A stretch of DNA of 64,000 nucleotides from Flavobacterium sp. KACC 22761 (GTDB lineage: Bacteria > Bacteroidota > Bacteroidia > Flavobacteriales > Flavobacteriaceae), in contig NZ_CP139148.1 of the NCBI RefSeq assembly GCF_034058155.1, positions 558,001 to 622,000 on the forward strand, read 5' to 3'. Below the pieces are notes generated by a model. The model was not told the DNA's origin, did not search any database, and saw only the letters and a list, made by a program, of their open reading frames with translations. Shown here piece after piece: positions 44,055 to 64,000 of the stretch. Position numbers and translations under genes: made by a program. Within the stretch, counting starts at the first letter, position 1. Each line of letters starts with the position of its first letter.

Positions 44055-45692
44055 CTAGTCATACTCTTTAAAATAATTTGCTCCCCAAATAGTATAACGT
44101 TTTTTCATGGTTTCAATTTTCGTTTGAAATTGAGTCCAATCTTTATTTTCTTTTGGAGACCATAATACTTCGCTTAAAGCGCTCAAACGCGGAAATATCA
44201 TATATTCGACTTTAGCTGGATTTGCCATATATTCTGTCCAAACATTCCCTTGAGCACCTAAAACGTATTTTGCTTGTTGCTCATTCAATTCTTTTGGAAT
44301 TGGCTCATAGCTGTAAACTTTTTCTAATGGCAAAAATCCCCCAATAGTTACTTCTTTATCGTTTTTAGTTTGAGAATGATCCAGATAAACGTGGCTTCCC
44401 GGCGTCATAATGACTTGGTGACTTTCTTTTGCTGCCGCAATTCCGCCTTCTTCGCCTCTCCAGCTCATAACAACTGCGTTTGGCGCAAGACCTCCTTCTA
44501 AAATTTCATCCCAACCAATAAGCGTTTTTCCTTTCTTATTGATGTACTTTTCCATGCGCTGAATGAAATAACTTTGCAAACCATGCTCGTCTTTTAGATT
44601 TTTTTCTTTGATCAATTGCTGGCAAAACTCGCTTTTTTTCCACGCATCTTTAGGCGCTTCGTCACCTCCAATGTGAATATATTTTGACGGAAATAAAGCC
44701 ACAACCTCATCGATAACATCTTCTAAAAATTTAAACGTGTTTTCACTCGGAACAAAAATATCGGCATGAACTCCCCATGTTTCCTGAACAATTTTATTTC
44801 TGCCGTTTGCCATTTCTTTTTTGCTTTGGTCAGAAATCATATTATCAGGAAGATTTGTTTTCTCGTTTGGAAAACAGCTTAATTCTGGATAAGCGGCAAT
44901 TGCTGCACTTCCATGTCCTGGCATTTCAATTTCTGGAATAACTGTTATAAATCGGTCTGAAGCATATTTCACAATTTCCTTAACTTCTTCCTGCGTATAA
45001 AATCCTTGTTCTACAGTATTGTCACTTCCTTTGCCAGGATATCTCCCAATGATGCTTCCGTTTCTTTTTGAACCGATTTCTGTAAGTTTTGGATATTTTT
45101 TGATTTCGATTCTCCAACCTTGATCTTCAGTCAAGTGCCAATGAAAATAATTCAGTTTATGCAAAGCCAAATAATCAATGTACTTTTTCACAAATGAAAC
45201 CGGAAAAAAATGACGCCCAACATCCAACATTGCTCCTCTGTAAACAAAACGAGGTTCATCATTAACCTCAACAGCTGCAATGGCAAGACTGTTGCTTTTT
45301 TCCGTCGGCAACAACTGTATAAGTGTTTGCATTCCGTAAAAAGTACCTTTAGCCGAATTTCCTGTTATTACTACACCATTTTTATCTGATTTCAAAGCAT
45401 AACCTTCGGCTTTAAGTCCGTCGATATTTTTTTTACTAACCAGCTTAATTGAATTTTTGCTGGCTTTTTTTGTTATCGGCAAAGCAAAACCATAATAATC
45501 GGTCAAATATTTATTAAAGAAAGTTGCAGTCGCTTTATCTTCTGAATTAGCAACAACCAAATTGGTTTGTGAATTAATGACAAAACTTCCTGTATTTTTA
45601 ACCACTTTTACCGGTTGTGGAATGATATTTACTTCTTGAGCAAACGACATCGCACTGCATAAAAGAAGCGAAAAGAAAAATGACTTTACCAT
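44055..45692 (-). CDS. GH20 beta-N-acetylhexosaminidase with IS-supplied stop codon
   Basis: 545 residues: signal peptide to about 19, a GH20b domain (20-145), then the catalytic barrel with NYFHWHLTEDQGW and the Asp344-Glu345 pair in HIGGDEAPKDAW. It removes terminal GlcNAc or GalNAc, fitting N-glycan trimming in this locus. The gene now ends EYD-stop inside the right end of the IS. Joining the IS flanks restores GAG-TAA, so the original protein was two residues shorter (ending NYFKE). Activity should be unaffected. It lies past the fucose operon terminator and probably has its own promoter. Confidence 0.92.
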   Translation of the reverse strand: MVKSFFFSLLLCSAMSFAQEVNIIPQPVKVVKNTGSFVINSQTNLVVANSEDKATATFFNKYLTDYYGFALPITKKASKNSIKLVSKKNIDGLKAEGYALKSDKNGVVITGNSAKGTFYGMQTLIQLLPTEKSNSLAIAAVEVNDEPRFVYRGAMLDVGRHFFPVSFVKKYIDYLALHKLNYFHWHLTEDQGWRIEIKKYPKLTEIGSKRNGSIIGRYPGKGSDNTVEQGFYTQEEVKEIVKYASDRFITVIPEIEMPGHGSAAIAAYPELSCFPNEKTNLPDNMISDQSKKEMANGRNKIVQETWGVHADIFVPSENTFKFLEDVIDEVVALFPSKYIHIGGDEAPKDAWKKSEFCQQLIKEKNLKDEHGLQSYFIQRMEKYINKKGKTLIGWDEILEGGLAPNAVVMSWRGEEGGIAAAKESHQVIMTPGSHVYLDHSQTKNDKEVTIGGFLPLEKVYSYEPIPKELNEQQAKYVLGAQGNVWTEYMANPAKVEYMIFPRLSALSEVLWSPKENKDWTQFQTKIETMKKRYTIWGANYFKEYD

Positions 45693-45780
45693 GTTTATGT
45701 TTTATTAATTAGTTTTAAAAAATCAAAAAAAAGCTGTGTGTACGATAACATTTTACACTTGAAACAATAGAAAATTTACA

Positions 45781-45819
45781 AACATATAGAAGCTTAAAAC
45801 TTAGCTTCTATATGTTTTT
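45781..45819. terminator. Terminator at the end of the fucose operon
   Basis: Stem aacatatagaagc / gcttctatatgtt with a 10-base loop, 29 bases past the FAH gene stop. Confidence 0.78.
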
Positions 45820-45847
45820 ATTAGTCAAACCTGAAAGGTAAATTAAT

Positions 45848-46702
45848 TTATTTTGCATAAGCTACAGCAACTTGTTTACTGCTGCCTAAACCGTCCATTC
45901 CAAGTTCAACAACATCTCCTGCTTTCAGATAAATAGGATCTGGTTTGATCCCTAAACCAACCCCTGGAGGTGTTCCTGTACTAATAATGTCACCTGGAAG
46001 CAATGTCATAAACTGGCTCAGATAATGCACTAAAAATGGAATTTTAAACACCAAATTAGAAGTATTGCTGTTTTGGAATGTTTTTCCGTTTACTGTTAAC
46101 CACATTGGAATATTGTTAACATCTTCTATCTCATCTTGAGTTGCCAAGAATGGTCCAAGAGGTGCAAAAGTATCACATCCTTTTCCTTTAGCCCATTGTC
46201 CGCCACGCTCTATTTGAAAAGCTCTTTCGCTGTAATCATTTAGCAAAGCATAACCCGCAACATAATCTAAAGCATCGGCTTCTTCTACATAACTTGCTTT
46301 TTTGCCTACTACAAAAGCCAATTCAATTTCCCAGTCTGTTTTTTCACTGTTTTTCGGAATAATCAAGTTGTCATTTGGCCCGCATAAAGAGGTACTCGAT
46401 TTAAAGAAAATAACGGGCTCAGTCGGAATTGGAGCATTCGTTTCAAGGCAATGATCTACATAATTTAATCCAATACAAATTATTTTTGAAGGTCGTGCAA
46501 CCGGAGAGCCCAATCGAACCGAAGCATCAACTTCTGGCAAAACAGGATTGCTCTCCAAAGCCTTTTTCAATTTTTTTAATCCATTTTCTTCAAAAAAAGC
46601 TTCGTTATAATCTGTTACTAAAGAGGATACATCAAATCTTTTTTCATCTATTAAAATACCTGGTTTTTCTTTGCCAGCTTCACCAAATCGTATTAGTTTC
46701 AT
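45848..46702 (-). CDS. FAH-family hydrolase, probable 2,4-diketo-3-deoxy-L-fuconate hydrolase
   Basis: 284 residues of the fumarylacetoacetate hydrolase superfamily: IICIGLNYVDHCLE, metal ligands in DWEIELAFVVGKKA and LLNDYSERAFQ, and LLPGDIISTGTPPGVGLG. FAH members act on 5- or 6-carbon beta-diketo acids. In deoxy-sugar pathways this family splits the diketo acid to pyruvate and L-lactate. Being last in an operon with lactate-oxidation genes and FucP strongly supports that reaction; other FAH substrates remain possible on motifs alone. Confidence 0.82.
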   Translation of the reverse strand: MKLIRFGEAGKEKPGILIDEKRFDVSSLVTDYNEAFFEENGLKKLKKALESNPVLPEVDASVRLGSPVARPSKIICIGLNYVDHCLETNAPIPTEPVIFFKSSTSLCGPNDNLIIPKNSEKTDWEIELAFVVGKKASYVEEADALDYVAGYALLNDYSERAFQIERGGQWAKGKGCDTFAPLGPFLATQDEIEDVNNIPMWLTVNGKTFQNSNTSNLVFKIPFLVHYLSQFMTLLPGDIISTGTPPGVGLGIKPDPIYLKAGDVVELGMDGLGSSKQVAVAYAK

Positions 46703-46730
46703 TTTATTACTTTATTATATTATACTTCTT

Positions 46731-47318
46731 TTATTCAATTACATAAATTTTGGCACTTCTTGCGCCATGAGCTCCTATAACCAGAGATTGTTCAATATCG
46801 GCTGTTTTTGAAGGGCCAGCAATGAAAACCCCAAATCCTTCTTTTGACACGTCGATTTTTTCATATGCCTGATGCATCGTATCTACAATATCTTTTTTAT
46901 TAATTACCAAAACCAAATGCTGACAAATAAAAGGAACAAGTCTATTTATCATTTGACTTTCAAAAACCCAAACAGCGCCATTTTCTGCTACTCCAAGCGT
47001 CCCCTTTACATAAGCTTTTTCGATTTTTTCCAATTCAAAAGCAGGAAATTCAGCAATATGATTGTCGATGTCGCCAAGCTCGGCAATTGCATTCACAACA
47101 AAATTCCCACTTTGTTTGTCTGCAATTAATTGCTCTTTAAGCATTACCAAATTAGAAATCAATTCTGTTTGACCGCCAATACTTTCTAATACTGTTTTAA
47201 ACTGTACATATCGATCTTCATAACGAATAACCGCATTATGATCGACAACAGGAACTTCAATCAATTCTGGTTGATTTCTGGCTATCGCATTCAATATATT
47301 TTCTCTCGCATTCATCAA
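46731..47318 (-). CDS. lutC: Lactate utilisation protein C (LUD domain)
   Basis: 195 residues with the LutC/YkgG block: MMNARENILNAIARNQPE, LGVAENGAVWVFES, VPFICQHLVLVINKKDIV and VFIAGPSKTADIEQSLVIGA. One of three proteins that together oxidise L-lactate to pyruvate. Its ATG overlaps the lutB stop (ATGA), so the two are translationally coupled. Confidence 0.88.
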   Translation of the reverse strand: MMNARENILNAIARNQPELIEVPVVDHNAVIRYEDRYVQFKTVLESIGGQTELISNLVMLKEQLIADKQSGNFVVNAIAELGDIDNHIAEFPAFELEKIEKAYVKGTLGVAENGAVWVFESQMINRLVPFICQHLVLVINKKDIVDTMHQAYEKIDVSKEGFGVFIAGPSKTADIEQSLVIGAHGARSAKIYVIE

Positions 47319-48688
47319 CTTTTATTTTTCTTGTTTTTCAAATACCAATCACGGAATGATTCTTTTGGAGCTTCGGGCATTTCTCTTTGTTTGAACCAAG
47401 GATTCACTTTATTATTTACTAATAGTGGAAAAGCACGCATACTCCATCTTCCAACTTTTCCAATCAAACGATATATTTTAGGATTCGAGAATAAAAAATT
47501 CATTCCCTGCATACTAACCTTTTTGCTTGTTGCAACGTAGCCTTCAGAAACGATTACTTGCCTCCATTTCCATAATTGCTCGTGAATATTGATTTTTACG
47601 GGACATACATTACTGCAACTACCGCATAAAGTTGAAGCAAAAGGCAAATCGGCATTGGCTTTCATATCCAAATTCGGATTTAAGACGGAGCCAATTGGGC
47701 CTGCAACTGCGGTATGATAACTATGACCTCCACTTCTGCGATACACCGGACAAGTATTAAAACAAGCCGCACAGCGAATGCATTTGAGTGAATTTCTAAA
47801 ATCTTCTCTTCCTAATTGCTTGCTGCGTCCGTTATCGACAATCACAATATGCATTTCTTGATTGGGCCTTGGTTTATGAAAATGACTGGAATAAGTGGTA
47901 ATCGGCTGTCCTGTGGCGCTTCTTGCCAACAATCGCAAAAACACGGATAAATGTGCCGCTTTCGGAATCAATTTTTCAAATCCCATGCAAGCAATATGAA
48001 CTGCTGCGGTATGTGCGCCCATATCGGCATTTCCTTCATTGGTACAAACTACAAAACCGCCTGTTTCGGCAATCGCGAAATTAACTCCCGTAATTGCTAA
48101 ATCTGACTCTACAAATTTATTACGCAAATGTTGTCGTGCCGCCTCAGTTAAATATTGAGGATCGTTATTTCCTTTTTCTGTTTGCAAATGCTCATGAAAA
48201 GTCGCACTTACATCTTCTTTTTTCAAATGAATAGCAGGCAAAACAATATGACTTGGCGGCTCTTTTCTAAACTGGACAATTCGCTCTCCCAAATCTGTGT
48301 CGACAACTTCTATTCCTTGATTATGCAAATATTCGTTCAAATGACACTCTTCCGTAAGCATGCTTTTGCTCTTGACAATTTTCTGGATTTTGTGCTTTTT
48401 GATAATTTCATGCACAATTTCGTTATGCTCTTTAGCATCTGAAGCCCAATGTACTTTTATACCGTTTGCAAGCGCATTTTTTTCAAATTCTATTAAATAA
48501 TTGGACAAATTAGAAAGTGTCTGATTCTTGATTTGCGAACCCCATTCTCTTAATTGTTCCCATTCCGGCAAACCATGCGCGGCCTTATCCCGCTTTGCAC
48601 GAACAAACCATAAAGTTTCATCGTGCCAATCGGTTCTTGGCTCATCAGCTATAAATTTTTCCGCTAAATCAGCGTGTTTTACCGTCAT
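47315..48688 (-). CDS. lutB: Lactate utilisation iron-sulfur protein B
   Basis: 457 residues: an N-terminal LUD-type domain (GIKVHWASDAKEHNEIVHEI, ESDLAITGVNFAIAETGGFV) and a C-terminal ferredoxin part with CIRCAACFNTCPVYRRSGG and CGSCSNVCPVKI, two 4Fe-4S clusters. It carries electrons in the LutABC complex. Full length. It overlaps lutC by four bases. Confidence 0.92.
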   Translation of the reverse strand: MTVKHADLAEKFIADEPRTDWHDETLWFVRAKRDKAAHGLPEWEQLREWGSQIKNQTLSNLSNYLIEFEKNALANGIKVHWASDAKEHNEIVHEIIKKHKIQKIVKSKSMLTEECHLNEYLHNQGIEVVDTDLGERIVQFRKEPPSHIVLPAIHLKKEDVSATFHEHLQTEKGNNDPQYLTEAARQHLRNKFVESDLAITGVNFAIAETGGFVVCTNEGNADMGAHTAAVHIACMGFEKLIPKAAHLSVFLRLLARSATGQPITTYSSHFHKPRPNQEMHIVIVDNGRSKQLGREDFRNSLKCIRCAACFNTCPVYRRSGGHSYHTAVAGPIGSVLNPNLDMKANADLPFASTLCGSCSNVCPVKINIHEQLWKWRQVIVSEGYVATSKKVSMQGMNFLFSNPKIYRLIGKVGRWSMRAFPLLVNNKVNPWFKQREMPEAPKESFRDWYLKNKKNKS

Positions 48689-48734
48689 TTTCTTTGTATT
48701 GAGTTTACTCTTTTAAAGACTAATCACTTTATTT

Positions 48735-49472
48735 TTAAATCAAACTATTCAGAATTTCAGCAATATGGATTGTTTGCACTTTGCTGCCTTTTCGTTTTAA
48801 TATTCCTTCGAGATGCATCAAACAACTTGTGTCTCCGCCCGTAATAAAATCAACATCATTGGCTTCATGTTCCTGAATTCGGTCTTTTCCCATTTTAACG
48901 CTTACGGCTTCTTCAAAAACACAAAAAGTTCCACCAAAACCACAACATTCATCATTACGTTTTGGTTTTCTGAGTTCAATACCTTCGACCATTTTGAGCA
49001 ATTGTTCTGGTTTTGAAAATTCTGGCAACATTCTTTCTGTCATAGACGAAAGATGCAATCCTCGTTGTCCATGACAACTATTATGCAATCCTACTTTATA
49101 AGGAAATTTGGCCTTCAGGCTTTTGACTTTTAAAACATCCGTTAGAAATTCTGTCAACTCATACACATTGTTACGAATACGTTCAGCTTGAATAGGATTT
49201 TCACCATCTTTCAAATGTTCTTTGACATGCAAAACACAACTTCCTGAAGGCGCTACGATATAATCAAATCTTGAAAAATTTTTAACGAAATTCACATCGC
49301 AGCCTTTGCTCAAACTTGCAAATCCACTATTTGCCATTGGCTGGCCACAACAAGTTTGCTCCAAAGGAAATTCAACATCACACCCTAACTTTTCCAGCAA
49401 TTGCAAAGTGGCAATACCCACTTTAGGATAAAGCTGGTCAATATAACAAGGTATGAATAAAGCAATTTTCAT
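48735..49472 (-). CDS. lutA: Lactate utilisation protein A (CCG-domain protein)
   Basis: 245 residues with two cysteine-rich CCG domains: EQTCCGQPMANSGF and KRNDECCGFGGTFCVFEE, plus SGSCVLHVKEHL and HNSCHGQRGLH. This is the LutA/LldE type, a likely partner in passing electrons to quinone. It lies 6 bases after the SDR gene and 46 bases before lutB in the same operon. Confidence 0.9.
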   Translation of the reverse strand: MKIALFIPCYIDQLYPKVGIATLQLLEKLGCDVEFPLEQTCCGQPMANSGFASLSKGCDVNFVKNFSRFDYIVAPSGSCVLHVKEHLKDGENPIQAERIRNNVYELTEFLTDVLKVKSLKAKFPYKVGLHNSCHGQRGLHLSSMTERMLPEFSKPEQLLKMVEGIELRKPKRNDECCGFGGTFCVFEEAVSVKMGKDRIQEHEANDVDFITGGDTSCLMHLEGILKRKGSKVQTIHIAEILNSLI

Positions 49473-49478: not shown

Positions 49479-50243
49479 TTAATTGTTCAATTTAATAAAA
49501 CCACCATCAAGGGGATAATCGCAACCGGTTACAAAACCCGATTCGTCACTGCATAAAAACAAAGCTAAAGCTGCCACTTCATCGGGTTTTGCCATACGGC
49601 CGATTGGTTGTGTTTTTGACAATTTTTCGAACATTTCAGCTTCTTTCCCTGGGTAATTTTTAGCAATGAATCCATCTACAAAAGGCGTGTGAACTCTTGC
49701 TGGCGAAATAGAATTACAACGAATATTTTCTGCCATATAATCTTTTGCTACCGATAATGTCATTGCCATTACAGCTCCTTTTGCTGTTGAATAAGCAAAA
49801 CGATCCGGAATTCCGACCCAAGCCGCAATCGAAGCCATGTTCAAAATAACACCGCCACCAGAAGCTCTCAAATACGGAATCGCGCCATGCAAACAATTAT
49901 AAACCCCTTTTACATTCACGTTCATAATTCTGTCAAAATCTTCTTCAGCAGTATTATCTACTTTTCCAACATGGGCAATACCGGCATTGTTTACCAAAAT
50001 TTGAATATTTCCAATTTTCTCAAATGTTGCTATTATTTCTTTTTGATTTGCCACATTACATGCATGAGAAAATACTTTTCCACCTGCTGCTGTAATTTCT
50101 GCAACAGCGGTTTTTGCGCTTTCTTCTGTTAATTCAATAATATGAACTTCGGCTCCCTGTTTTGCAAATAAGGCCGAAATCGCTTTTCCGATTCCGCTTC
50201 CTCCACCTGTAACTACCGCTTTTTTATTTTGTAATGAAAACAT
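49479..50243 (-). CDS. Short-chain dehydrogenase, probable 2-keto-3-deoxy-L-fuconate dehydrogenase
   Basis: 254 residues: a Rossmann start VVTGGGSGIGKAISALF, NNAGIAHVG, a catalytic Ser in LNMASIAAWV and YSTAKGAV (YxxxK), ending FVTGCDYPLDGGFIKL. A classical NAD(P)-dependent SDR. In the non-phosphorylating fucose route an SDR oxidises the 4-hydroxyl of the 2-keto-3-deoxy acid before the FAH-type cleavage; operon position fits exactly. The substrate is inferred from context. Confidence 0.85.
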   Translation of the reverse strand: MFSLQNKKAVVTGGGSGIGKAISALFAKQGAEVHIIELTEESAKTAVAEITAAGGKVFSHACNVANQKEIIATFEKIGNIQILVNNAGIAHVGKVDNTAEEDFDRIMNVNVKGVYNCLHGAIPYLRASGGGVILNMASIAAWVGIPDRFAYSTAKGAVMAMTLSVAKDYMAENIRCNSISPARVHTPFVDGFIAKNYPGKEAEMFEKLSKTQPIGRMAKPDEVAALALFLCSDESGFVTGCDYPLDGGFIKLNN

Positions 50244-50335: not shown

Positions 50336-51991
50336 TTACAAAGATACACCACGTTTCCACGGAATAAAGTCATCCTGATTTAAGGAAACTGCTTTTGGTA
50401 TAATTTCGCCGCTTGCCGCTTTGATGCAATATTCCAAAATATCTTCTCCCATTTCTTCGATTGATTTCTCTCCGCTAATAATTGGACCACAATCAATATC
50501 AATGATATCGCTCATTTTTTTGGCCAAAACCGAATTTGTCGCCACTTTAATAACCGGACAAATCGGGTTTCCTGTTGGAGTTCCCAATCCTGTAGTAAAC
50601 AATATTAATGTCGCTCCAGATGCCGCTTTACCTGTTGTTGCTTCCACATCATTTCCTGGCGTGCAAACCAAACTTAAACCTGCTTTTGTTGCCGGTTCTG
50701 TATAATCCAATACATCTACAACTGGCGCGGTTCCTCCTTTTTTGGCAGCTCCTGCACTTTTTATCGCATCGGTAATTAATCCGTCTTTAATATTTCCTGG
50801 CGACGGATTCATATGGAAACCTGATCCAACTTTATGCGCCAAGGCATCGTAAGATTGCATTAAATCAATAAATTTTGTCGCTACCGCCTCGTTTGTACAA
50901 CGATCAATCAAATTTTGCTCTACACCGCATAATTCAGGGAATTCAGCCAAAAGCACTTTTCCTCCTAAAGCCACCAGCAAATCAGAAGTATAACCAACAG
51001 CTGGATTTGCAGAAACACCACTAAAACCGTCACTTCCGCCACATTTTACTCCCAAACACAATTCGCTTAAAGGAGCTGGAGTTCTTTCGAATTTGTTTAT
51101 TTCAACTAATCCTTCAAATGTTTTTTTGATTGCATCAGCAACCAATTGTTCCTCACTTTTTGCCTGTTGTTGTTCAAAAACCAATAATGGTTTATCGAAA
51201 GTCGGATTCTGATTTTTAACATCATTTACAAAATCCTGAATTTGCAAATGCTGACAACCCAAACTTAATAATGTAATTCCGGCAACGTTTGGATGATTGG
51301 CGTAAGAAGCTAATAAAGCGCTCAAAGTAGCTGCATCCTGACGCGTACCGCCACAACCACCTTGATGATTTAGGAATTTGATTCCGTCAACATTTTTAAA
51401 TATTCTGTTTGTATTTGCTGTTGGAGTCATTTGAACATCAATTGAATCCAAATCTTCTCCGTTTTTATAAGCTTCCAGCAAATAATGCGTGTATTGCGTG
51501 TATTTATCACTAACAGAATATCCTAATTCATTGTGAAGTGCTTCGCGAATGACATCAAGATTTCGGTTTTCACAAAATACTGTTGGAATAAACAACCAGT
51601 AATTTGCTGTTCCAACACGGCCATCACTTCTTTTGTATCCATTAAAAGTTCTGTTTTGATATTTCGAAACATCCGGCGCTTGCCATTCGAAATCTACATC
51701 GCGATATTGATAGGGCTCAGCTGCATGTTTAAGGTTTTCGGTAGTCATAAGACTTCCTTTTGCAACATCACTTTGAACCTTTCCTACCAAAACTCCATAC
51801 ATCGTGATTTCAGAACCTTGCTTTAAATCTGTTGTATAAAATTTATGTTTTGCTTTTATAGTATCCGTCAGAACATAATCCTGTCCTTCAAAAGTTACTG
51901 TTTCTCCTTTTGCTAAATCAGTCAAGGCAACCAAAACATTATCTGCTGGATGCATTTTTATAACCAATCTTTTAACTCCGTTTTCTAACAT
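50336..51991 (-). CDS. UxaA-family altronate dehydratase-like protein, probable L-fuconate dehydratase
   Basis: 551 residues: an N-terminal SAF-like domain (about 1-95, VKMHPADNVLVALTDLAKGE) and the UxaA core with NHQGGCGGTRQDAATL, LGLGVKCGGSDGFSG-like LCLGVKCGGSDGFSG and LCTPGNDVEATTG, with iron-binding cysteines. UxaA enzymes dehydrate sugar acids such as altronate. Here the neighbours (FucP, SDR, FAH) point to L-fuconate. ATG 51991 was chosen over the open frame from 52042, which would overlap fucP. It follows fucP by 16 bases. Confidence 0.85.
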   Translation of the reverse strand: MLENGVKRLVIKMHPADNVLVALTDLAKGETVTFEGQDYVLTDTIKAKHKFYTTDLKQGSEITMYGVLVGKVQSDVAKGSLMTTENLKHAAEPYQYRDVDFEWQAPDVSKYQNRTFNGYKRSDGRVGTANYWLFIPTVFCENRNLDVIREALHNELGYSVSDKYTQYTHYLLEAYKNGEDLDSIDVQMTPTANTNRIFKNVDGIKFLNHQGGCGGTRQDAATLSALLASYANHPNVAGITLLSLGCQHLQIQDFVNDVKNQNPTFDKPLLVFEQQQAKSEEQLVADAIKKTFEGLVEINKFERTPAPLSELCLGVKCGGSDGFSGVSANPAVGYTSDLLVALGGKVLLAEFPELCGVEQNLIDRCTNEAVATKFIDLMQSYDALAHKVGSGFHMNPSPGNIKDGLITDAIKSAGAAKKGGTAPVVDVLDYTEPATKAGLSLVCTPGNDVEATTGKAASGATLILFTTGLGTPTGNPICPVIKVATNSVLAKKMSDIIDIDCGPIISGEKSIEEMGEDILEYCIKAASGEIIPKAVSLNQDDFIPWKRGVSL

Positions 51992-52007
51992 ATTATATAA
52001 ATAGAAT

Positions 52008-53297
52008 TTATGCTTTATTTGTTTTATGTCCGTTAAATGCAAACAATAATATTACTGAAAAACAAGTTAGTGGTACCACATAACCGTATTGAATGCTTCC
52101 AGTAATATCTGAAATCAATCCTAAAACCGGAGGAAGTAAAGCTCCTCCAACAATAGCCATTACAATCAATGAAGATCCGATTTTTGTATTATGCCCAAGT
52201 CCGTCAATTCCCATCGAAAAGATGGTTGGAAACATAATACTCATAAAAAAGGCGATTGCTATTAAAGTGTAAACCACAATCATTCCCGAACCAAAAATGG
52301 CCACTAAGGATAAGAAAATATTAATGATGGCGTAAATGATCAATAGTTTTCTTGGTTTAATATATTGCATGAAAAATGTTCCGGCAAAACGTCCTAACAT
52401 AAAAGCCAGACCAAAGAAACCTAAATATTTAGCCGCTACATCTTCGCCAAGACCTGCAGAAGTGGTCGCCATTTTTATAAAAAAACTACCTACGCAAACT
52501 TGCGCTCCCACATAAAAAAACTGTGCTAAAATTCCCCAACGCAAGCGTATAGATTTCAAAGCTCCTGAAAAACTAGCTCCTTCTGCCCCTTGTTTATCTT
52601 CATCTTTTACATCAGGCATATTGGTGAAATAGAAAACCAATGCTACTGAAAGAATAATTAATCCTAAAATTAAATAGGGCATTTTCACACTCGCCGCTTC
52701 TTCTAAAATATACGCATGCAAATCTGCTGGTGCCATTGCATCCATTTCTGCCTTTGTCAAATTCTTTCCAGATAAAATTAGTGGTCCAACATAAGCGGGT
52801 GCAATAAATGCCGCAAGTCCGTTAAACGACTGCGAAAAATTTAATCTTTTGGTTGCTGTTTCTGATGGCCCCAAAATGGTCACATAAGGATTTGCCGCTG
52901 TTTCTAAAAAAGTAAGTCCACAGGCAATAACAAACAAGGCACCTAAAAAGTAAATATATTGCAACGAATTGGCCGCAGGCACAAACAAAATTGAGCCAAT
53001 ACCAAACAAAATCAACCCTATCATGATTCCAGATTTATAACCGTATTTTCTCATAATATAGCCCGCCGGCAATGCCATAAAAAAATAAGCCACAAATACA
53101 GACGAGTCAATCAATGAAGATTCTAAATCGGTAAGATTGAATGCTTTTCTTAAATGCGGAATAAGTATTGGGTCTAGGTTGTGCACAAAACCCCAGAAAA
53201 AGAAAAGACTGGTAACCAATATAAAAGGAAATAACCATTTCTTATTCTCTTGGGGAGATACCTTTTTTTGCACATCCAATTCAGTTAGTAAAGCCAT
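52008..53297 (-). CDS. fucP: L-fucose:H+ symporter, MFS
   Basis: 429 residues with 12 membrane helices. FPFILVTSLFFFWGFVHNLD, with its acidic residue in helix 1, and FLETAANPYVTILGP are hallmarks of FucP/GluP-type sugar permeases. It brings L-fucose through the inner membrane. Helix count and length are normal. First gene of the seven-gene catabolic operon; the upstream gap to the GH92 gene contains the GH92 terminator and presumably the operon promoter. Confidence 0.88.
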   Translation of the reverse strand: MALLTELDVQKKVSPQENKKWLFPFILVTSLFFFWGFVHNLDPILIPHLRKAFNLTDLESSLIDSSVFVAYFFMALPAGYIMRKYGYKSGIMIGLILFGIGSILFVPAANSLQYIYFLGALFVIACGLTFLETAANPYVTILGPSETATKRLNFSQSFNGLAAFIAPAYVGPLILSGKNLTKAEMDAMAPADLHAYILEEAASVKMPYLILGLIILSVALVFYFTNMPDVKDEDKQGAEGASFSGALKSIRLRWGILAQFFYVGAQVCVGSFFIKMATTSAGLGEDVAAKYLGFFGLAFMLGRFAGTFFMQYIKPRKLLIIYAIINIFLSLVAIFGSGMIVVYTLIAIAFFMSIMFPTIFSMGIDGLGHNTKIGSSLIVMAIVGGALLPPVLGLISDITGSIQYGYVVPLTCFSVILLFAFNGHKTNKA

Positions 53298-55853: not shown

Positions 55854-58034
55854 TTATTTTGAAATTTCGAAACTACCTTCCAACACTGTATCTCTTGAAT
55901 TCGATCCGATTTTCAAGGTGTAGTTTCCTTCATAGATTTTAAATTGTTTTGTAGCATCGTCCCATTTTTGAAGTTCTTCTAATGGAATTTCCAAAGTGAT
56001 TGTTTTTGATTTTCCTTTAGCTAAAGAAACACGTTTAAAAGCTTTCAGTTCTTTTAATGGCTTTCTATCAAAATTTGGATATTCAATATAAACCTGAGCT
56101 ACTTCATCTGCATCATATTGACCTGTATTAAAGATTTCGATTTGCATTGAAATTTTATCTGAACTCAATTTGACTGCCTTAGGTTGTTGAACCCAATTGT
56201 ATCCAAAAGAAGAATAACTTAATCCGAAACCAAAAGGATATTGAACCTCTTTGTCAAAATAGCGATACGTTCTGCCCTTCATTGCATAACTATTATAATC
56301 TGGCAAATCACTAAAAGATTTGTAAAAAGTAACAGGCAAATGTCCTGAAGGAGAAGCTTTTCCAAAAAGAAGATTCGCCAAAGCTGTTCCGCCTTGCTCG
56401 CCCGGATACCAAGCAAAAACAATAGCATCAACATAAGGTTCAATTGCTGAAATATCGACAGCACTTCCTCCAGTTACTACTGCTATAAGAGGTGTTTTTG
56501 TGCCTTTTCGTAGCGCTTTTATATAAGCGATATGTGAAGCTGGAAGATCCATATTTTTTCTGTCTCCTTTTCCATCAGCTAAAAATGCGTCGCCTTCTTC
56601 ACCTTCATAAACAGGCGTAAAACCAATAACGGCGATCGTAACATTTGCCATAGACGCCGCCCAAACTCCACCAAAATCAGTGGTATTGGTAAAATCGCAG
56701 CCCATATCATATTCCACGCGCGTGTCTGGATCTACTGCGCCGGCAATTCCTTCCACAAAGTTCACGGCTTTATCGCTAATTCCGTGGTAGTTTCCTAACA
56801 AAGCATCTAGTGAAGCTGCATTTGGACCAACAATCATAATTGATTTATAATCTTCTTTTTTAAGAGGCAACACTTTTGTTTTGTTGTCACCAAATTGTCC
56901 GTTTTTCAGCAAAACCATACTTTGTTCTGCCATTTTCAAACTTAGATTTCTATGATACGTATTAGCAATACTGTCAATACCATATTTTCGATACGGATTA
57001 TCTTCGGCTTTGTCATAAAATCCTAATTTGAATTGTGTTCTCAAAGTTGGAGCCAATGCATTATCAATATCTTGCGTTGTAATCAGTTTTTGATTTAATG
57101 CATTTATGGCATCTTTTTGCAATAATCCGCTGCAATCCATATTTACGCCACGTTTGATTGCCTCAGCAGCAACTGCTACACTGTTTGGCAACGTTTTGTG
57201 ACCTTCATAAATATCCTGCAACGCCCAACAATCGGTTACTACATGTCCTCCAAATTTCCATTCTTTTCTTAAAATATCCTGCAAAAGTGTTTTTCCTGTG
57301 CAACAAGGTTCTGAATTCACTCTGTTATAAGCGCACATAACCGTTTCTACTTTAGCATCTACCAGTTTTTTAAAAGCATACAAATAGGTTTCTCTCAAAT
57401 CTTTTTCATCAACAATTACATCAATCGAATGTCTTGTTTTTTCTGGTCCGCTGTGTACGGCGAAATGTTTCGCACAAGCCGCTGTTTTCATGTATTTAGG
57501 ATCAGTTCCTTGCAATCCTTTAACATAAGCTGTTCCCATTTTTCCGGTAAGAAAAGGATCTTCTCCGTACGTTTCTTGGCCTCTTCCCCAACGTGGATCT
57601 CTGAAAATATTAATATTTGGGGACCAAAAATTCAATCCCATATATTGCAAGCGACGGTCTTTGGCTACAGCCATATTATTTTTTGCTCTGGCTTCGGTAG
57701 AAATTGCGTTTGCAACTTCGTTAAGCAAAGGATCATTAAAAGTAGCAGCCATTCCTAAAGCTTGAGGAAAAACAGTTGCTTTTCCGGCTCTTGCCACACC
57801 ATGAAGCGATTCGTTCCACCAATTATATTGTGGAATATCCAGTCTTTTAACCGCTTTGCTTTCAAAACCTAATAAAGAAATTTTCTCTTCTGTAGTTAAT
57901 TGTTTCAGTAAATCATCTACCCTTTTTTCTATTGACAAACTTTGGTTTTTATAAGCTGGTGTTTTTTGTGCATTTGCAAAAACAATGCAAAAACAAAAAA
58001 ACAAGACAAATCGGTAAGTTTTGGAACAATTCAT
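55854..58034 (-). CDS. GH3 family beta-glycosidase
   Basis: 726 residues: signal peptide MNCSKTYRFVLFFCFCIVFA, a TIM-barrel part with WWNESLHGVARAG, GRGQETYGEDPFLTGKMG and the nucleophile Asp in VVTDCWALQDIYEG (about 268), an alpha/beta sandwich with FTPVYEGEEGD and a C-terminal FnIII-like domain from about 615. It most resembles beta-glucosidase/beta-xylosidase members. In this locus it may cleave a beta-linked terminal sugar. ATG 58034 begins the signal peptide; the frame is open to 58121. Confidence 0.88.
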   Translation of the reverse strand: MNCSKTYRFVLFFCFCIVFANAQKTPAYKNQSLSIEKRVDDLLKQLTTEEKISLLGFESKAVKRLDIPQYNWWNESLHGVARAGKATVFPQALGMAATFNDPLLNEVANAISTEARAKNNMAVAKDRRLQYMGLNFWSPNINIFRDPRWGRGQETYGEDPFLTGKMGTAYVKGLQGTDPKYMKTAACAKHFAVHSGPEKTRHSIDVIVDEKDLRETYLYAFKKLVDAKVETVMCAYNRVNSEPCCTGKTLLQDILRKEWKFGGHVVTDCWALQDIYEGHKTLPNSVAVAAEAIKRGVNMDCSGLLQKDAINALNQKLITTQDIDNALAPTLRTQFKLGFYDKAEDNPYRKYGIDSIANTYHRNLSLKMAEQSMVLLKNGQFGDNKTKVLPLKKEDYKSIMIVGPNAASLDALLGNYHGISDKAVNFVEGIAGAVDPDTRVEYDMGCDFTNTTDFGGVWAASMANVTIAVIGFTPVYEGEEGDAFLADGKGDRKNMDLPASHIAYIKALRKGTKTPLIAVVTGGSAVDISAIEPYVDAIVFAWYPGEQGGTALANLLFGKASPSGHLPVTFYKSFSDLPDYNSYAMKGRTYRYFDKEVQYPFGFGLSYSSFGYNWVQQPKAVKLSSDKISMQIEIFNTGQYDADEVAQVYIEYPNFDRKPLKELKAFKRVSLAKGKSKTITLEIPLEELQKWDDATKQFKIYEGNYTLKIGSNSRDTVLEGSFEISK

Positions 58035-58579
58035 TATTGTTGTTTTTAAAATTTCATAATTAATTTCTTTTCTTCTAAAACGTTTTACCAATTCAAACGA
58101 AAAAGAAAAGGCAAAAGCCATCCTAAAGCATTTTTTAAAATCATAACTATCTTTAATGGAGGCAGAAAGTTTTTAAAACAGTTTATTTAGCTGCGTACTT
58201 TCGGAAATTTAAAGATATAATATCTTTTCTTTAAATAATAATTCGATTTTATCTAAATTTAAGTAACAATTGCCTTTTTAAGATGACCAATAAAAGACAA
58301 AAACTATTTTTTTAACATAAAAAGACACTATTAAATTCCGATCGCAACTGAAAATTTTCTACTTTAGCTTTTGCGAAATTCGTACTGAGATTCGAACATA
58401 AATCCCATTTTTAACTTATAAAACACACCATGAAAAACATTTTCTGATTGTTTCATCCCTTTTTGATCTTATTTTATTAAATCGATTTAGTAAAATAATC
58501 AAACTTAGAAATTCTTATTAACTAATTATATATGAATTGTTTCTGTTTTCTCTGAAACAATCATAAAACCAAACCACAT
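58035..58579. promoter_or_regulatory. Divergent control region between GH3 and PNGase genes
   Basis: About 545 bases with no convincing gene, carrying the promoters for both directions. attgtttc occurs at 58447-58454 and again at 58536-58543, where it pairs with gaaacaat at 58554-58561 to form a hairpin 18 bases before the PNGase start. No exact TTG-N19-TAnnTTTG promoter was found, which would suit activator-dependent promoters. An open minus-strand frame from 58121 is only the upstream extension of GH3. Confidence 0.5.
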
Positions 58580-60250
58580 ATGAAAAAGATTTCGTTTACA
58601 TTACTTGCCATTTTTGTCATTGCATTGTCATTTGGGCAAAAAAATCCAAAAGCCATTAAAGTCACTTATCAAAGAAGCTATAACGGAAAAATTGCCGAAA
58701 ACCAAGATCCATTATTTTTGTTTGCTTCAAAAGAATTGAGCTTTACCACTACCAATAAAATTTTGGAACAGAAAGCAGCACTTCCGTACGAGCAGACTTT
58801 TATTAATTTTAGCACCAAAACCATTTCGCAATGGGCGCAACTAAAAAACAAATCGATTCTTAACAATGACACTGAAGCTTTAGGAAAACAAAAATTTGAG
58901 TTCAGCAATGAAACCAAAAAAATCCTGAGTTATACCTGCAAAAAAGCAACAACTTCTGTAAATTCCAATAAAATTGAAATTTGGTACACCACTGAATTAG
59001 GTTTAAAAGGTGGTCCATCTGTTTTAGGACAGGATTTGGGTTTGGTTTTAGAAACAATCCGAAATGGAAATAGTGTTGTAACGGCATCCAAAATTGAACT
59101 CTTAAAAACTGCTCCGTCTTTTTTAAAAATTCCGGCTGTACAAGCTGTCGATCAATTAACTTATAAAGATTTATTGTGGAAAAGCCGTTTTATCAATATT
59201 CCAGTTTTCAATAAGGAACAAATTCATTTTGTACCTGATGCAAAGTCTAATGACAGTATTTTGCGATTTGCCAGCAGCACCGTCATTGTCCGCAAAGTAA
59301 AACTTCCAGAAATCAAAAAAGGAAGTGCCATTTTTGTAGATGTAACGCAGCAATCAAATGGCGATGCTTACGACAGAACTGGATCGGTTTTTATGATTCC
59401 AACAGATAAAAAAACTTCTTTTCTTGACGGATTAAAAAATGGAGTTAAATCACTACCCGAATACGACAATGGAAACGGGAAAAAATATCAAGGAGTTGCC
59501 GCAACAGACGACTTTACTCCTTTATTAGAATTGATGCGATTTTTCACTCCTTTTGGCGTAAAACATTTCAACTATCTGCAATTAAAAGATAAAGTTTGGC
59601 AAGATAGTGTTTCGTATCGTCAGGATATTTCGCTGTTGCAACCAAGATTGAGCAATCAAGAAGTTTATATCGGAATGTTTATTGGAAACTATGATGCTGG
59701 CGGACACAAGGCGAGCTTAAACATTACTATTCACGAAGGCGAAGACAACAATACAAAAGCCGATTATATTTTGCCACTTTTCAACACATTGAACGTAATG
59801 GAAATGGCAGGACAAGAATACGGAACTATGTTTGACAACGAAAAAGGACTTGAACTAGCTTTTGAAGTTCCTCAAGGATACAAAAATTTTAAATTGAGTT
59901 ATACTACAACTGGTCACGGTGGCTGGGAAAACGGCGATGAGTTTCTGCAAAAGAAAAACACCATCTTTATTGACGGAAAAGAAGTTTTTGGATTTACACC
60001 TTGGCGCACCGACTGTGGTTCTTACCGATTGAGCAATCCGGCTTCGGGGAATTTTGGCAATGGTTTATCATCATCTGACTTAAGCCGTTCAAACTGGTGT
60101 CCGGGAACGACCACCAATCCAAATTTAATTGACTTAGGAAATTTAACTCCGGGAAAACATACCATTCGCGTTATGATTCCGCTTGGAAAACCGGAAGGAA
60201 CCAGTAGCAGTGCTTGGAATGTTTCGGGATTTTTAATCGGAGAAAGGTAA
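58580..60250 (+). CDS. PNGase F-type peptide-N-glycosidase with N-terminal GLPGLI-like domain
   Basis: 556 residues. Signal peptide to about 19. Residues 21-175 look like a GLPGLI-family domain (KKILSYTCKKATT, IEIWYTTELGLKGGP, DLGLVLETIRNG). Residues about 200-556 match PNGase F: GDAYDRTGSVF with the likely catalytic Asp265, TTGHGGWENGDEFLQKK with Glu454, then CGSYRLSNPASGNFG and SRSNWCPGTTTNP with a likely Cys479-Cys507 disulfide. It cuts the amide between Asn and N-glycans on glycoproteins. The long form resembles the type II enzyme of Elizabethkingia. It leads a plus-strand unit with GH29 and M28. Confidence 0.88.
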   Translation: MKKISFTLLAIFVIALSFGQKNPKAIKVTYQRSYNGKIAENQDPLFLFASKELSFTTTNKILEQKAALPYEQTFINFSTKTISQWAQLKNKSILNNDTEALGKQKFEFSNETKKILSYTCKKATTSVNSNKIEIWYTTELGLKGGPSVLGQDLGLVLETIRNGNSVVTASKIELLKTAPSFLKIPAVQAVDQLTYKDLLWKSRFINIPVFNKEQIHFVPDAKSNDSILRFASSTVIVRKVKLPEIKKGSAIFVDVTQQSNGDAYDRTGSVFMIPTDKKTSFLDGLKNGVKSLPEYDNGNGKKYQGVAATDDFTPLLELMRFFTPFGVKHFNYLQLKDKVWQDSVSYRQDISLLQPRLSNQEVYIGMFIGNYDAGGHKASLNITIHEGEDNNTKADYILPLFNTLNVMEMAGQEYGTMFDNEKGLELAFEVPQGYKNFKLSYTTTGHGGWENGDEFLQKKNTIFIDGKEVFGFTPWRTDCGSYRLSNPASGNFGNGLSSSDLSRSNWCPGTTTNPNLIDLGNLTPGKHTIRVMIPLGKPEGTSSSAWNVSGFLIGER

Positions 60251-60313
60251 TTGATAATTAAATTTAGATAATATCGACTTATTTATTAAACGTAAGTCTT
60301 TCTATTTTTAAGC

Positions 60314-60396
60314 TTCAGAAAAAGACGTAACCAAATCAAGTACAATGGATTATGTTTTTACCAAATATACTTATTTGATTACATCTTTTTTCTGAA
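60314..60396 (+). promoter_or_regulatory. Large imperfect hairpin between PNGase and GH29 genes
   Basis: Two 29-base arms, 60314-60342 and 60368-60396, are reverse-complementary except for one indel and three changes (ttcagaaaaa, gtaa, caaat shared). They close on a 25-base loop. It lies 64 bases after the PNGase stop and 31 before the GH29 start. It could be a terminator/attenuator, an mRNA stabiliser or a double operator. Confidence 0.6.
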
Positions 60397-60427
60397 ATCT
60401 AACTATCAAACCACTTAACTCAAAAAC

Positions 60428-61759
60428 ATGAAAAAAATCACATTTTGCCTGCTGTTTTTCTCGCTGAGCTTAACGGCAATAATTGCTCAAAATTATACTC
60501 CAACGGAAGGAAATTTAAAAAACCGAAAAGAATTTCAAGATGATAAATTTGGAATGTTTATTCATTTTGGGCCTTACAGTGTTCTTGGTAATGGCGAATG
60601 GATTATGAACAACCAAAACATCAAAGTAACAGAGTATGGCAGATTGATTAATGTATTCAACCCGCAAGATTTTGATGCAAAAAAATGGGTTGGCATTGCC
60701 AAAGCTGCAGGCATGAAATACATTACTTTTACTACCCGACACCACGACGGCTTCAGCAATTTTGACACCAAATTATCAGATTGGAAAATCACAAATACAC
60801 ATTTTAAAAGAGACCTGCTGAAAGAATTAGCAGATGAATGTCATAAAGAAAATATTAAATTATTTTGTTACTATTCGCTTTTAGACTGGACGAGAACGGA
60901 TTATCAGTACGAAACTGGAAAAACTGGAAAAGGAACTGGCAGAACGCAAAAAAGCGACTGGAACAGCTACATCCGTTTTATGAAAGGACAATTGACCGAA
61001 ATACTTTCAAACTATGGAAAAATCGGCGGTATTTGGTTTGATGGCCATTGGGATCAACTGGATAATGATACCGATAAAACATTAACTTCAAAAGTCAATT
61101 GGCATTATGATGAAATTTATTCCTTGATTCACTCGCTTCAACCTGACTGTTTGATTTCAAACAATCACCATTTATTGCCAATTCAAGGAGAAGATTTCCA
61201 AGCATTTGAAAAAGATTTGCCAGGTGGAAATACTACAGGATTTGGAGGCCAATCTGTTTCTCAGTTGCCTTTGGAAACTTGTGAAACCATGAATAATTCT
61301 TGGGGATTCAATATCAATGACAGAAAATACAAATCGACAAAAGACTTATTGCATTATATGATAAATGCTGCAAGTCTGAATGCGAATTTCTTGCTGAATG
61401 TTGGTCCAATGGCCGATGGAACAATTCAGCCCGAATTTGTTGAAACGTTGAAGGAAATAGGAATCTGGATGAACAAAAACGGAAACAGCATTTACGGAAC
61501 AAGAGGCAATATTATCAAATCACAGGATTGGGGCGTATTTACGGCAAAAGACAAAACTCTGTTTGCCCACATCATCAATACTCCAAAACAAGCAGATTAT
61601 ATTTTCATTCCAGAAATGAAGCAAAAAATCAAAAAATGCTACTTGATGGACGGCAAGAAAGAAATCAAATTCAAACAACAGCCAGAAGGGACTTTTGTTT
61701 ATTTGAACGGCATCAAAATGGACACAATGGATACGATAATAGAAATGCAAATACAATAA
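60428..61759 (+). CDS. GH29 family alpha-L-fucosidase
   Basis: 443 residues: signal peptide to about 20, then the GH29 barrel with DDKFGMFIHFGPYSVLG, YITFTTRHHDGFSNFDTK and the nucleophile Asp205 in GGIWFDGHWDQ, followed by LLNVGPMADGTIQPE and a small C-terminal sheet. It releases L-fucose from glycans, including core or antenna fucose on N-glycans. Linkage preference is unknown. Its product is the substrate of the FucP operon on the other strand. It is 12 bases before the M28 peptidase gene. Confidence 0.92.
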   Translation: MKKITFCLLFFSLSLTAIIAQNYTPTEGNLKNRKEFQDDKFGMFIHFGPYSVLGNGEWIMNNQNIKVTEYGRLINVFNPQDFDAKKWVGIAKAAGMKYITFTTRHHDGFSNFDTKLSDWKITNTHFKRDLLKELADECHKENIKLFCYYSLLDWTRTDYQYETGKTGKGTGRTQKSDWNSYIRFMKGQLTEILSNYGKIGGIWFDGHWDQLDNDTDKTLTSKVNWHYDEIYSLIHSLQPDCLISNNHHLLPIQGEDFQAFEKDLPGGNTTGFGGQSVSQLPLETCETMNNSWGFNINDRKYKSTKDLLHYMINAASLNANFLLNVGPMADGTIQPEFVETLKEIGIWMNKNGNSIYGTRGNIIKSQDWGVFTAKDKTLFAHIINTPKQADYIFIPEMKQKIKKCYLMDGKKEIKFKQQPEGTFVYLNGIKMDTMDTIIEMQIQ

Positions 61760-61771
61760 ATTAATTTTCAA

Positions 61772-62740
61772 ATGTTTAAAAAAATTATTCTCTTTTCTGC
61801 TGTTGCTTTTATTACTGCTGAAAGAGGAAACGCACAATCAACATTTTCAGCTGAAAAATTTCTGAAACATGATACTTATCTTGCGTCAGATAAATTAGAA
61901 GGCCGCTTGGCCGGAACGAAAGGCAATAATGAAGCGGCTGTGTATATCAAAAAATATTTCAAAAAATTCGGGCTAAAAGAATTCAACAACAACTATTACC
62001 AGCCTTTCAAAATTTTCATGAAACCGGATATCAATAAGATGAAATCAGATAGTGTTTCGACCCAAAATGTTGTAGGTTATTTGGAAGGTTCTGATGAAAA
62101 TCTGAAAAAAGAATTCATTGTCATTGGTGCGCATTACGACCATTGGGGATGGGGCGGAAAAGGCTCGGGAAGCAAGAAAAAAGACACGCTTGCGATTCAT
62201 AATGGAGCTGATGACAATGCTTCTGGTGTTTCGGCTTTATTATCTATTTTAGAAGAATTACATCATGCTAAAACCGCTCCGAAAAGAAGCATCATTTTCA
62301 TTTCTTTCAGTGCTGAAGAAGAAGGTTTATTAGGTTCTAAATATTTTGTCAACCATTTGCCGGTAGATAAAAATGCTGTAAAAGTGATGATCAATATGGA
62401 TATGGTTGGAAGATTAAACGATAAAAAAGAACTTTATATGGGAGGCGCTGGCACTTTTCCAGATGGTGTAGAATTGATGAAAAAATTAGGCGAAGGCAGT
62501 GGGCTGAATCCGATTGTATTTGCTGGTGATGTTGGTGGCTCAGATCATGTTACTTTTTATAAAAATAATATTTCTGTTATAGGATTACATACAGGCGGGC
62601 ATCCACAATATCATACACCAGAAGATGACACTGCTTTAATTAATAGCGAAGGCGCTATTTTGGTTTCAAAATACATTTATAATGCCCTGACGGCTATTGC
62701 CAATTATGAACAGACGCTGACTTTTATAAAGCAGAATTAA
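61772..62740 (+). CDS. M28 family zinc peptidase (secreted aminopeptidase-like)
   Basis: 322 residues: signal peptide to about 21, then the M28 metal set: His/Asp in IGAHYDHWG and NGADDNASGVSALL, Glu in FSAEEEGLLGSKY, Asp in NMDMVGRL and His in HTGGHPQYHTPEDD. A two-zinc exopeptidase. Placed 12 bases after GH29, it would degrade the peptides of glycoproteins once sugars are removed. Confidence 0.9.
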   Translation: MFKKIILFSAVAFITAERGNAQSTFSAEKFLKHDTYLASDKLEGRLAGTKGNNEAAVYIKKYFKKFGLKEFNNNYYQPFKIFMKPDINKMKSDSVSTQNVVGYLEGSDENLKKEFIVIGAHYDHWGWGGKGSGSKKKDTLAIHNGADDNASGVSALLSILEELHHAKTAPKRSIIFISFSAEEEGLLGSKYFVNHLPVDKNAVKVMINMDMVGRLNDKKELYMGGAGTFPDGVELMKKLGEGSGLNPIVFAGDVGGSDHVTFYKNNISVIGLHTGGHPQYHTPEDDTALINSEGAILVSKYIYNALTAIANYEQTLTFIKQN

Positions 62741-62789
62741 AAAAATGAAAATGTAAATTTGACCACAAATTTTATAAATTATACAGATT

Positions 62790-62826
62790 AAAAAAAGGCG
62801 AATCAAAATAGATTCGTCTTTTTTTA
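62790..62826 (+). terminator. Terminator after the M28 gene
   Basis: Stem ggcgaatc / gattcgtc (one G-T pair) with a six-base loop and a T run. Confidence 0.8.
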
Positions 62827-63020
62827 TGCATAACTGTTCCTTTATTCCTCTTAAAAATCAACCTTTTACAACAAAATTTATTTAAATAAATTTCACAAAC
62901 AGTGTAACAGTTGAAAAAAAACAAAGTCTCTAAAAGTATCGAGTCTTTCTCAACTCGATCAATATTAGTTTGGTTAAGTTTCAACAACCGTCACATTGTT
63001 GAAATTAGGTTTTCACAAAC

Positions 63021-63056
63021 AAAAAACCCCAGAATCAGGTTGTCCTGAATCTGGGG
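63021..63056 (-). terminator. Terminator after the SusD-like gene
   Basis: Stem ccccagaatcagg / cctgaatctgggg with one central mismatch, loop ttgt, and a T run on the minus strand, 35 bases past the SusD stop. Confidence 0.85.
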
Positions 63057-63090
63057 CTTACCAAGTACTAACCAAACATTAAAAATGAAA

Positions 63091-64000
63091 TTATTTTACG
63101 TCCCAGAAAATTTTGGTACTTAAATTATCATTTGCTTTTACAGTATTGTAATTTGCAGTGTTGTAAACACTTTCAGAAGTTGGGTATGTCCAACGTGTTG
63201 GAGGTGTTTTTCTAACAGAACTTGTTTCATCTTCCATGAAAGTTAATGCAGGAAGTTTCAATCTTCTTTGTTCAGCCCAAGCTTCATCAGCTTGCATGAT
63301 GTTGAAGTGAATGTACTTTTGGAAAGCAATTAACTGCAACTGCGCTGCTGCTGTAGTAGCTCCTGCAAAGTTGATTTTAAGAATATAAGCATCAATTTCA
63401 GCTGCAGTTGGCTCTGAAGTTGGCTTCCAAGTTAAATCATCTGCTTTATCTCCTAATCTTACATAGTATTCGATAGATTGTCTGATCGCTTTTTCGAAAT
63501 GTATTTTTGCAGTAGTTGCATTACCATTTCTTGAATAGTACTCCGCAAGAAGCAAGTTCATTTCTGCAGCATTCACTAATGTACCAGGCAACCAGTCATT
63601 TCTACTGATTACAGATCTGTTGTAGATTGCAATTTTACCATCAGTAAGCAATTGATCTTGCGCTCCTGAAGTCAATGATGGATCAAGTCCTACATAAGTT
63701 GTTGCATTTACTCCTTTTTCAAACAACCACTTCTCACGAGGATCTAGATTAGCATTCATGTGGTCAATCATAGGTTTTGGGGCAACGTTATTGTTAGATG
63801 TTTCTAAAGCATCAAAGAAGCCCGAAGTATCTAAATCTGTATCCTGAGTATATACTTTGAAAGCAACGTTTTCTGAATTCTCATCCACGATTTTTCCTTC
63901 TGCAATAATTTCAGCGATTTCAGTATTTGCTCTTGAAGCTAAAGATGAAACTCCAGATACTCTGTTTAAGATTCTTAAACGCAATGAGTTACAATAGTTT
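63091..64000 (-). CDS. SusD/RagB-family outer-membrane lipoprotein, 5' end beyond window
   Basis: About 303 C-terminal residues, open to the right edge. The frame continues upstream of the first Met as NYCNSLRLRILNRVSG, a typical SusD helix; then NAAEMNLLLAEYYSRNGNAT (TPR-like) and QADEAWAEQRRLKLPALTFM and TRWTYPTSESVYN at the C-terminus. SusD proteins sit on the cell surface over a SusC TonB receptor and capture glycans or peptides. Its SusC partner should lie just past the window end. It converges with the PNGase-GH29-M28 unit. Confidence 0.9.
   Translation of the reverse strand, partial: NYCNSLRLRILNRVSGVSSLASRANTEIAEIIAEGKIVDENSENVAFKVYTQDTDLDTSGFFDALETSNNNVAPKPMIDHMNANLDPREKWLFEKGVNATTYVGLDPSLTSGAQDQLLTDGKIAIYNRSVISRNDWLPGTLVNAAEMNLLLAEYYSRNGNATTAKIHFEKAIRQSIEYYVRLGDKADDLTWKPTSEPTAAEIDAYILKINFAGATTAAAQLQLIAFQKYIHFNIMQADEAWAEQRRLKLPALTFMEDETSSVRKTPPTRWTYPTSESVYNTANYNTVKANDNLSTKIFWDVK

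Follow-up and report, generated by a model that had tools for sequence, protein, structure and literature searches.

The question raised by this locus is why genes predicted for N-glycan cleavage stand together with genes predicted for L-fucose breakdown in Flavobacterium sp. KACC 22761, and how far the group extends. The window, i.e. the whole stretch of 64,000 nucleotides analysed here, corresponds to positions 558001–622000 of the 5.04 Mb genome, which is a single contig; coordinates below are those of the window unless marked as genome. The original prediction described a compact 20-kb block at 44055–64000. Its end at 64000 was set by the window edge, and the locus continues to about genome position 655137, spanning genome 602055–655137 (~53 kb). 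Judging from its genes, the window most probably holds the left half of a utilization locus for fucosylated N-glycoproteins. All the parts are of known kinds, and the unusual point is that an N-glycan module is positioned within a fucose operon.

Extent of the locus

Three things can be read directly from the sequence: which gene families are present, how they are arranged, and that a second genome (G082) carries a near copy of the locus. The minus-strand gene of a SusD-like lipoprotein begins at 63091 and is cut by the window end at 64000; the whole gene (genome 621091–622686) matches PF12771 with 177.8 bits. SusC (genome 622688–626020), containing a Plug domain, follows SusD. This adjacent pair stands beside genes for carbohydrate-active enzymes, and the locus is thus a polysaccharide utilization locus. 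A SusC gene and a regulator had been looked for past 64000, and both are present. The order past SusD is SusC, a LacI regulator, GH3 with a PA14 domain, GH29, a GalB-type GH2 (1032.1 bits, cut-off 900), SDR2, an amidohydrolase, a mutarotase of the rhaM family and an AraC regulator. An alpha/beta-hydrolase, glycosylasparaginase, two GH29, GH92, GH29, GH20 and a LacZ-type GH2 (927.7 bits, short of the cut-off of 999) come after AraC. Four more GH29 genes are therefore located past 64000.

A quite different polysaccharide system past 64000 was also looked for and was not found. The neighbours there (SusC, LacI, fucosidases, galactosidases, GH92, GH20, glycosylasparaginase and fucose oxidation) appear to fit the same system, which supports the predicted use of glycoproteins. 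Of the six GH29 genes in the genome, five are grouped within 31.1 kb, and such clustering was obtained in 0 of 200000 uniform draws (a crude control). Because of this clustering, and because G082 keeps the gene order, chance is not an issue for the gene grouping.

Genes for glycan and peptide cleavage

The peptide:N-glycosidase (PNGase) gene is located at 58580–60250 on the plus strand. The PNGase_F-II_N domain and the N-glycanase N and C domains (PF22252, PF09112 and PF09113) cover the full length of the protein, and the closest solved relative is PNGF-II (PDB 4r4z, 661.3 bits). The enzyme is thus of the PNGF-II type, and it is the sole match of this type found in the genome. Its predicted structure was poor (mean pLDDT 37.6) and was discarded. 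The PNGase gene, a GH29 alpha-L-fucosidase gene (60428–61759, plus strand) and an M28 peptidase gene (61772–62740, plus strand; PF04389, 148.1 bits) read out of a divergent stretch of 458 bases. The entries nearest to the fucosidase carry the title GH29A; its predicted structure is middling (mean pLDDT 64.3) and was used only for reading the titles of matched entries.

On the minus strand, the run in the order of transcription is GH3, GH92, FucP, the UxaA-type dehydratase, SDR1, LutA, LutB, LutC, a FAH-type hydrolase and GH20. The GH3 glycosidase (55854–58121; PF00933/PF01915) is beta-xylosidase-like. Its best PDB match is the xylan 1,4-beta-xylosidase 7vc6, and its top NCBIfam model is Xyl3A, with 774.2 bits where the cut-off is 1250. 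The GH92 alpha-mannosidase (53526–55781) matches PF07971 with 598.3 bits and PDB 6f91 with 647.9 bits. The GH20 beta-N-acetylhexosaminidase (44055–45692; PF00728, 406.6 bits) has a start resembling a signal peptide. PNGase, GH92, GH20, GH29, GH3, M28 and SusD are thus found where they had been placed, with Pfam scores far above cut-off.

A second amide-cutting enzyme, the glycosylasparaginase, lies past the window end. It matches PDB 3ljq with 540.7 bits and carries a Tat-like signal. Its Thr192 is aligned to the first residue of the beta chain 1ayy_B, so that both the family and the Thr with which the beta chain begins after self-cleavage are recognized; in NCBIfam, the match is a weak one to beta-aspartyl-peptidase (133.2 bits, cut-off 567). 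Among solved structures, the two amide-cutting enzymes are closest to PNGF-II (4r4z) and glycosylasparaginase (3ljq and 1p4k), respectively, and the organisms of these three entries are presumably Elizabethkingia and kin. In contrast to these solved enzymes, here both genes belong to one locus, ~23 kb apart.

Probable oxidative L-fucose pathway

Pfam and NCBIfam confirmed the lower fucose genes claimed for the window, namely FucP, the UxaA-type dehydratase, an SDR, LutA/B/C and the FAH-type hydrolase. Fucose catabolism is only half contained in the window; candidates for the upper half (mutarotase, L-fucose dehydrogenase and fuconolactonase) are located at genome 634576–636590, 12.6–14.6 kb beyond its end. 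All the lower genes are on the minus strand. FucP, the L-fucose:H+ symporter (52008–53297), exceeds the cut-off of TIGR00885 (384.3 bits against 280.4) and matches PDB 3o7q at 1.3e-97, with 358.9 bits to NF007524, short of the cut-off of 427. The UxaA-type (GD_AH) dehydratase (50336–52042; PF20629, 321.5 bits) is the predicted L-fuconate dehydratase, and SDR1 (49479–50243; PF13561, 192.4 bits) is the predicted 2-keto-3-deoxy-L-fuconate 4-dehydrogenase; both assignments are predictions based on the neighbourhood. L-Lactate oxidation is represented by LutA with a cysteine-rich domain (48735–49472; PF02754, 100.5 bits), the iron-sulfur protein LutB (47315–48688; TIGR00273, 429.9 bits, cut-off 444.8) and LutC (46731–47318; PF02589, 50.4 bits). 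The FAH-type hydrolase (45848–46702; PF01557, 228.9 bits) is the predicted 2,4-diketo-3-deoxy-L-fuconate hydrolase. It shows 369.3 bits to NF053535 (cut-off 500) and matches PDB 8gsr, an L-2,4-diketo-3-deoxyrhamnonate hydrolase, at 4.3e-82.

In the upper half, SDR2 passes the curated cut-off for L-fucose dehydrogenase (NF052481, 414.7 bits against 300) and is thus assigned to this step. PF04909 matches no protein of the genome other than the amidohydrolase, which gives 291.8 bits to the L-fucono-1,5-lactonase model NF052480 (cut-off 400). A candidate is therefore present for every step of the oxidative fucose route. The isomerase family FucI gave no match in the genome (PF07881, Fucose_iso_N1), whereas 3 of 14 control genomes were positive, including E. 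coli; FucK and FucA were not searched. The missing FucI match makes it probable that fucose is oxidized, without a kinase step, to pyruvate and L-lactate and that LutABC consumes the lactate.

A UxaA paralogue elsewhere in the genome is 54% identical to the locus copy. Its neighbours are a mannitol-dehydrogenase-family gene, an aldolase, a PfkB kinase, UxaC and GH28 genes, a setting that would be expected for altronate dehydratase in galacturonate use. Thus the locus copy would be free for another acid, most simply L-fuconate, and the comparison argues that it is a fuconate dehydratase. Campylobacter jejuni has a non-phosphorylative L-fucose pathway with a UxaA-type dehydratase, which ends via an aldolase and lactaldehyde. 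The fucose permease, SDR, lactonase-type amidohydrolase, mutarotase and UxaA-type dehydratase are alike in the two systems, whereas the present one ends with the FAH-type hydrolase and LutABC.

Proposed mechanism and substrate

In the proposed mechanism, PNGase would release the glycan from the protein, and M28 and other peptidases would degrade the peptide. GH29 would take fucose, GH2 galactose, GH20 N-acetylglucosamine (GlcNAc) and GH92 mannose. After removal of the core fucose, glycosylasparaginase would split the leftover GlcNAc-Asn; it would thus offer a second way to open this bond after peptide loss. Glycosylasparaginase is known to act only once the core fucose is removed, so GH29 would act first. 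SusC and SusD would import the pieces, and FucP L-fucose. The sugar would then pass from the mutarotase to L-fucose dehydrogenase (SDR2), fuconolactonase, fuconate dehydratase (UxaA type), 2-keto-3-deoxyfuconate dehydrogenase (SDR1) and the FAH-type hydrolase, giving pyruvate and L-lactate. LutABC, which would convert lactate to pyruvate, fits the L-lactate expected from the FAH-type step. The AraC and LacI regulators within the locus probably turn it on. No 14-mer (at most 1 mismatch, at least 5 G/C) was shared between any of the 12 intergenic stretches of the locus, and no palindrome recurred in these and 9 stretches of G082.

The kind of glycoprotein is a separate matter, which does not compete with the explanations discussed below. 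Enzymes of the PNGF-II type accept core alpha-1,3-fucosylated N-glycans, and the xylosidase-like GH3 possibly removes the beta-1,2-xylose of plant-type chains. The substrate may instead be complex N-glycans of the vertebrate type, not plant-type chains with core alpha-1,3-fucose and beta-1,2-xylose, and we give this somewhat less than an even chance. The GalB- and LacZ-type beta-galactosidases and GH20 suit complex antennae. Against it, no sialidase family was recognized in a search confined to the scanned locus genes, and GH3 is xylosidase-like; neither point is decisive.

The interrupted fucose operon

Three related loci (L024, L025 and L026) contain an unbroken fucose operon of ~11 kb in the order AraC, FucM, AmHyd, SDR2, FucP, UxaA, SDR1, LutA, LutB, LutC and FAH. 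Their genomes gave no PNGase match at 1e-30. In the present genome the fucose genes have the same order and strand, except that 23.3 kb of N-glycan genes (GH2, GH29, GH3, LacI, SusC, SusD, M28, GH29, PNGase, GH3 and GH92) separate SDR2 from FucP. G082 shows the same break, which is wider. Among the relatives with another fucose gene order, L030, L032 and L035 have AmHyd and SDR2 after FAH.

In the UxaA tree (31 of 34 rows; L038, L067 and L068 were dropped by the coverage/stop filter), the 11 rows labelled N-glycan fall in one set. L027 is among them, and there SDR2 adjoins FucP. A different grouping appears in the joined tree of four genes (25 of 34 rows), with L020/L021 beside L024/L025 and L034 apart. 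Because the two trees disagree, gain versus loss of the module is not settled by them. Tentatively, we propose that a ~23-kb N-glycan module may have entered a standing fucose operon between SDR2 and FucP in one lineage. Deglycosylation would then have come to be triggered by the freed fucose, sensed by the old AraC, and to be repaid chiefly by the carbon of this fucose, and PNGase and glycosylasparaginase would finish the GlcNAc-Asn core. This scenario is possible, with the balance against it.

Distribution among relatives

In 120 genomes of the genus, PF09113 matched in 51, of which 37 were strong (1e-40 or better), and a fucose-type UxaA (at least 76% identity) was found in 20. Four genomes carry both a strong PNGase and this UxaA, and only in G000 and G082 are the two within 25 kb. 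The GH3 orthologue is present in 2 of the 120 (at least 88%), and five others have it at 46–48%.

A contig scan gave at least 577 UxaA-type relatives among at least 596 pattern matches listed, and 80 loci were kept. The following counts refer to genes with at least 50% identity within the fetched stretch and a flank of up to 10 kb, where contig ends cut many loci. SDR1 is near the dehydratase in 67 of the 80, the FAH gene in 57, FucP in 36 and the GH3 orthologue (88–92%) in 8. PNGase is near it in four (L022, L023, L034 and, in two pieces, L067). The chromosome of one Flavobacterium metagenome-assembled genome has two UxaA-type loci ~330 kb apart, one by the two-piece PNGase (L067) and one with the fucose set (L068). 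The UxaA-type protein of Flavobacterium cutihirudinis (L016) is 96% identical to that of the window. In all 28 loci L038–L065, LutA, LutB and LutC were not found near the dehydratase; thus either lactate is handled elsewhere there or the end of the route differs.

Ten of 13 genomes of these loci searched contain PNGase. The lactonase-type gene was found in all 11 genomes searched, i.e. these ten and that of L027, with identities of only 56% in G126 and 54% in L027's genome. The two genes are on one contig, 12.6–19.5 kb apart, in seven of the ten (G120, G122, G123, G124, G125, G127 and G131). They are on separate contigs in G121 and G126, and ~337 kb apart in G132. The lactonase match contains one stop in each of G131 and G121. 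The locus of G082 is collinear throughout the 80 kb fetched, and its GH3–PNGase gap of ~13 kb holds an extra GH92, a GH38-type gene, an MFS transporter, a GntR regulator and a ROK-family gene.

Several results weigh against a locus for fucosylated N-glycoproteins with an oxidative fucose route. Across the genus, PNGase is not associated with the fucose set (4 of 20 genomes with it against 33 of 100 without it; Fisher p 0.30, odds below 1). Six of the eight GH92 genes of the genome are outside the locus. Most of the 80 loci lack LutABC next to the dehydratase (LutB occurs there in 16). The lactonase, the FAH-type hydrolase and LutB all score under the NCBIfam equivalog cut-offs, and neither the dehydratase nor SDR1 is named by any model. 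Because no genus-wide association was found, the PNGase–fucose coupling belongs to one lineage. The original prediction had called the coupling less usual; it is indeed notable, as a feature confined to one Flavobacterium lineage and not as a general rule.

The locus might chiefly scavenge free fucose or fucosylated oligosaccharides (milk-like, mucin-like or algal), with PNGase and GH92 as passengers joined in one lineage. The fucose genes of L024–L026 without a PNGase found, the missing genus-wide association and the five GH29 genes to one PNGase would agree with this. However, PNGase, GH92, GH20 and glycosylasparaginase jointly indicate N-glycoproteins, the gene set is collinear in G082, and seven of the ten PNGase-bearing relatives have less than 20 kb between PNGase and the lactonase-type gene. 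We thus consider scavenging unlikely. It is very improbable that UxaA, SDR1, FAH and LutABC act on a different deoxy sugar or sugar acid, e.g. L-rhamnose, and were placed here by chance: a 2,4-diketo-3-deoxyrhamnonate hydrolase is the closest match of the FAH-type gene and the mutarotase is of the rhaM family, but FucP and L-fucose dehydrogenase are above cut-off, FucP in the same gene run, and five GH29 genes are in the same locus.

Neighbouring features

At the left end, an HTH gene and an rve integrase gene (42713–44013) end 42 bases from the GH20 stop; according to their domains, the pair is putatively of the IS3 type. Several relatives have a second GH20 at this place, and the pair may have truncated the locus on this side.

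To the right, genome 656489–665685 (L014:3489–12685) is a stretch of ~9.2 kb in which C makes up 0.2% of the plus strand and open reading frames of at least 120 aa are few; it is flanked by an exact direct duplication (4457 bases) of the LacZ-type GH2 region. Faulty sequencing or assembly of the source genome very likely produced the stretch and the duplication. A ribosomal operon, guessed at the right end from the G+C content, was rejected, as Rfam gave no match and the stretch is nearly free of C. A second cluster at genome 677613–687325 (L111:4613–14325), 22–32 kb past the locus end as assembled, contains GH125, two GH92, GH2 with an Ig-mannosidase domain and a LacI regulator 61% identical to that of the locus. 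A core beta-mannosidase was not recognized within the locus itself, and this cluster could supply it.

Significance

PNGase-bearing N-glycan loci of Bacteroides and Capnocytophaga contain SusC/SusD with PNGase, GH92, GH20, GH29, GH3 and GH2. The present locus is like them in all of these parts and differs in that a whole predicted oxidative fucose route and a glycosylasparaginase stand in the same block. Fucosidases and both amide-cutting enzymes serve as tools for glycan analysis. The locus points to a UxaA-family protein as a likely fuconate dehydratase and to a probable route from L-fucose to pyruvate and lactate in Bacteroidota. It may be a case in which a glycan-cleaving module and the catabolic pathway of its product are wired by position.

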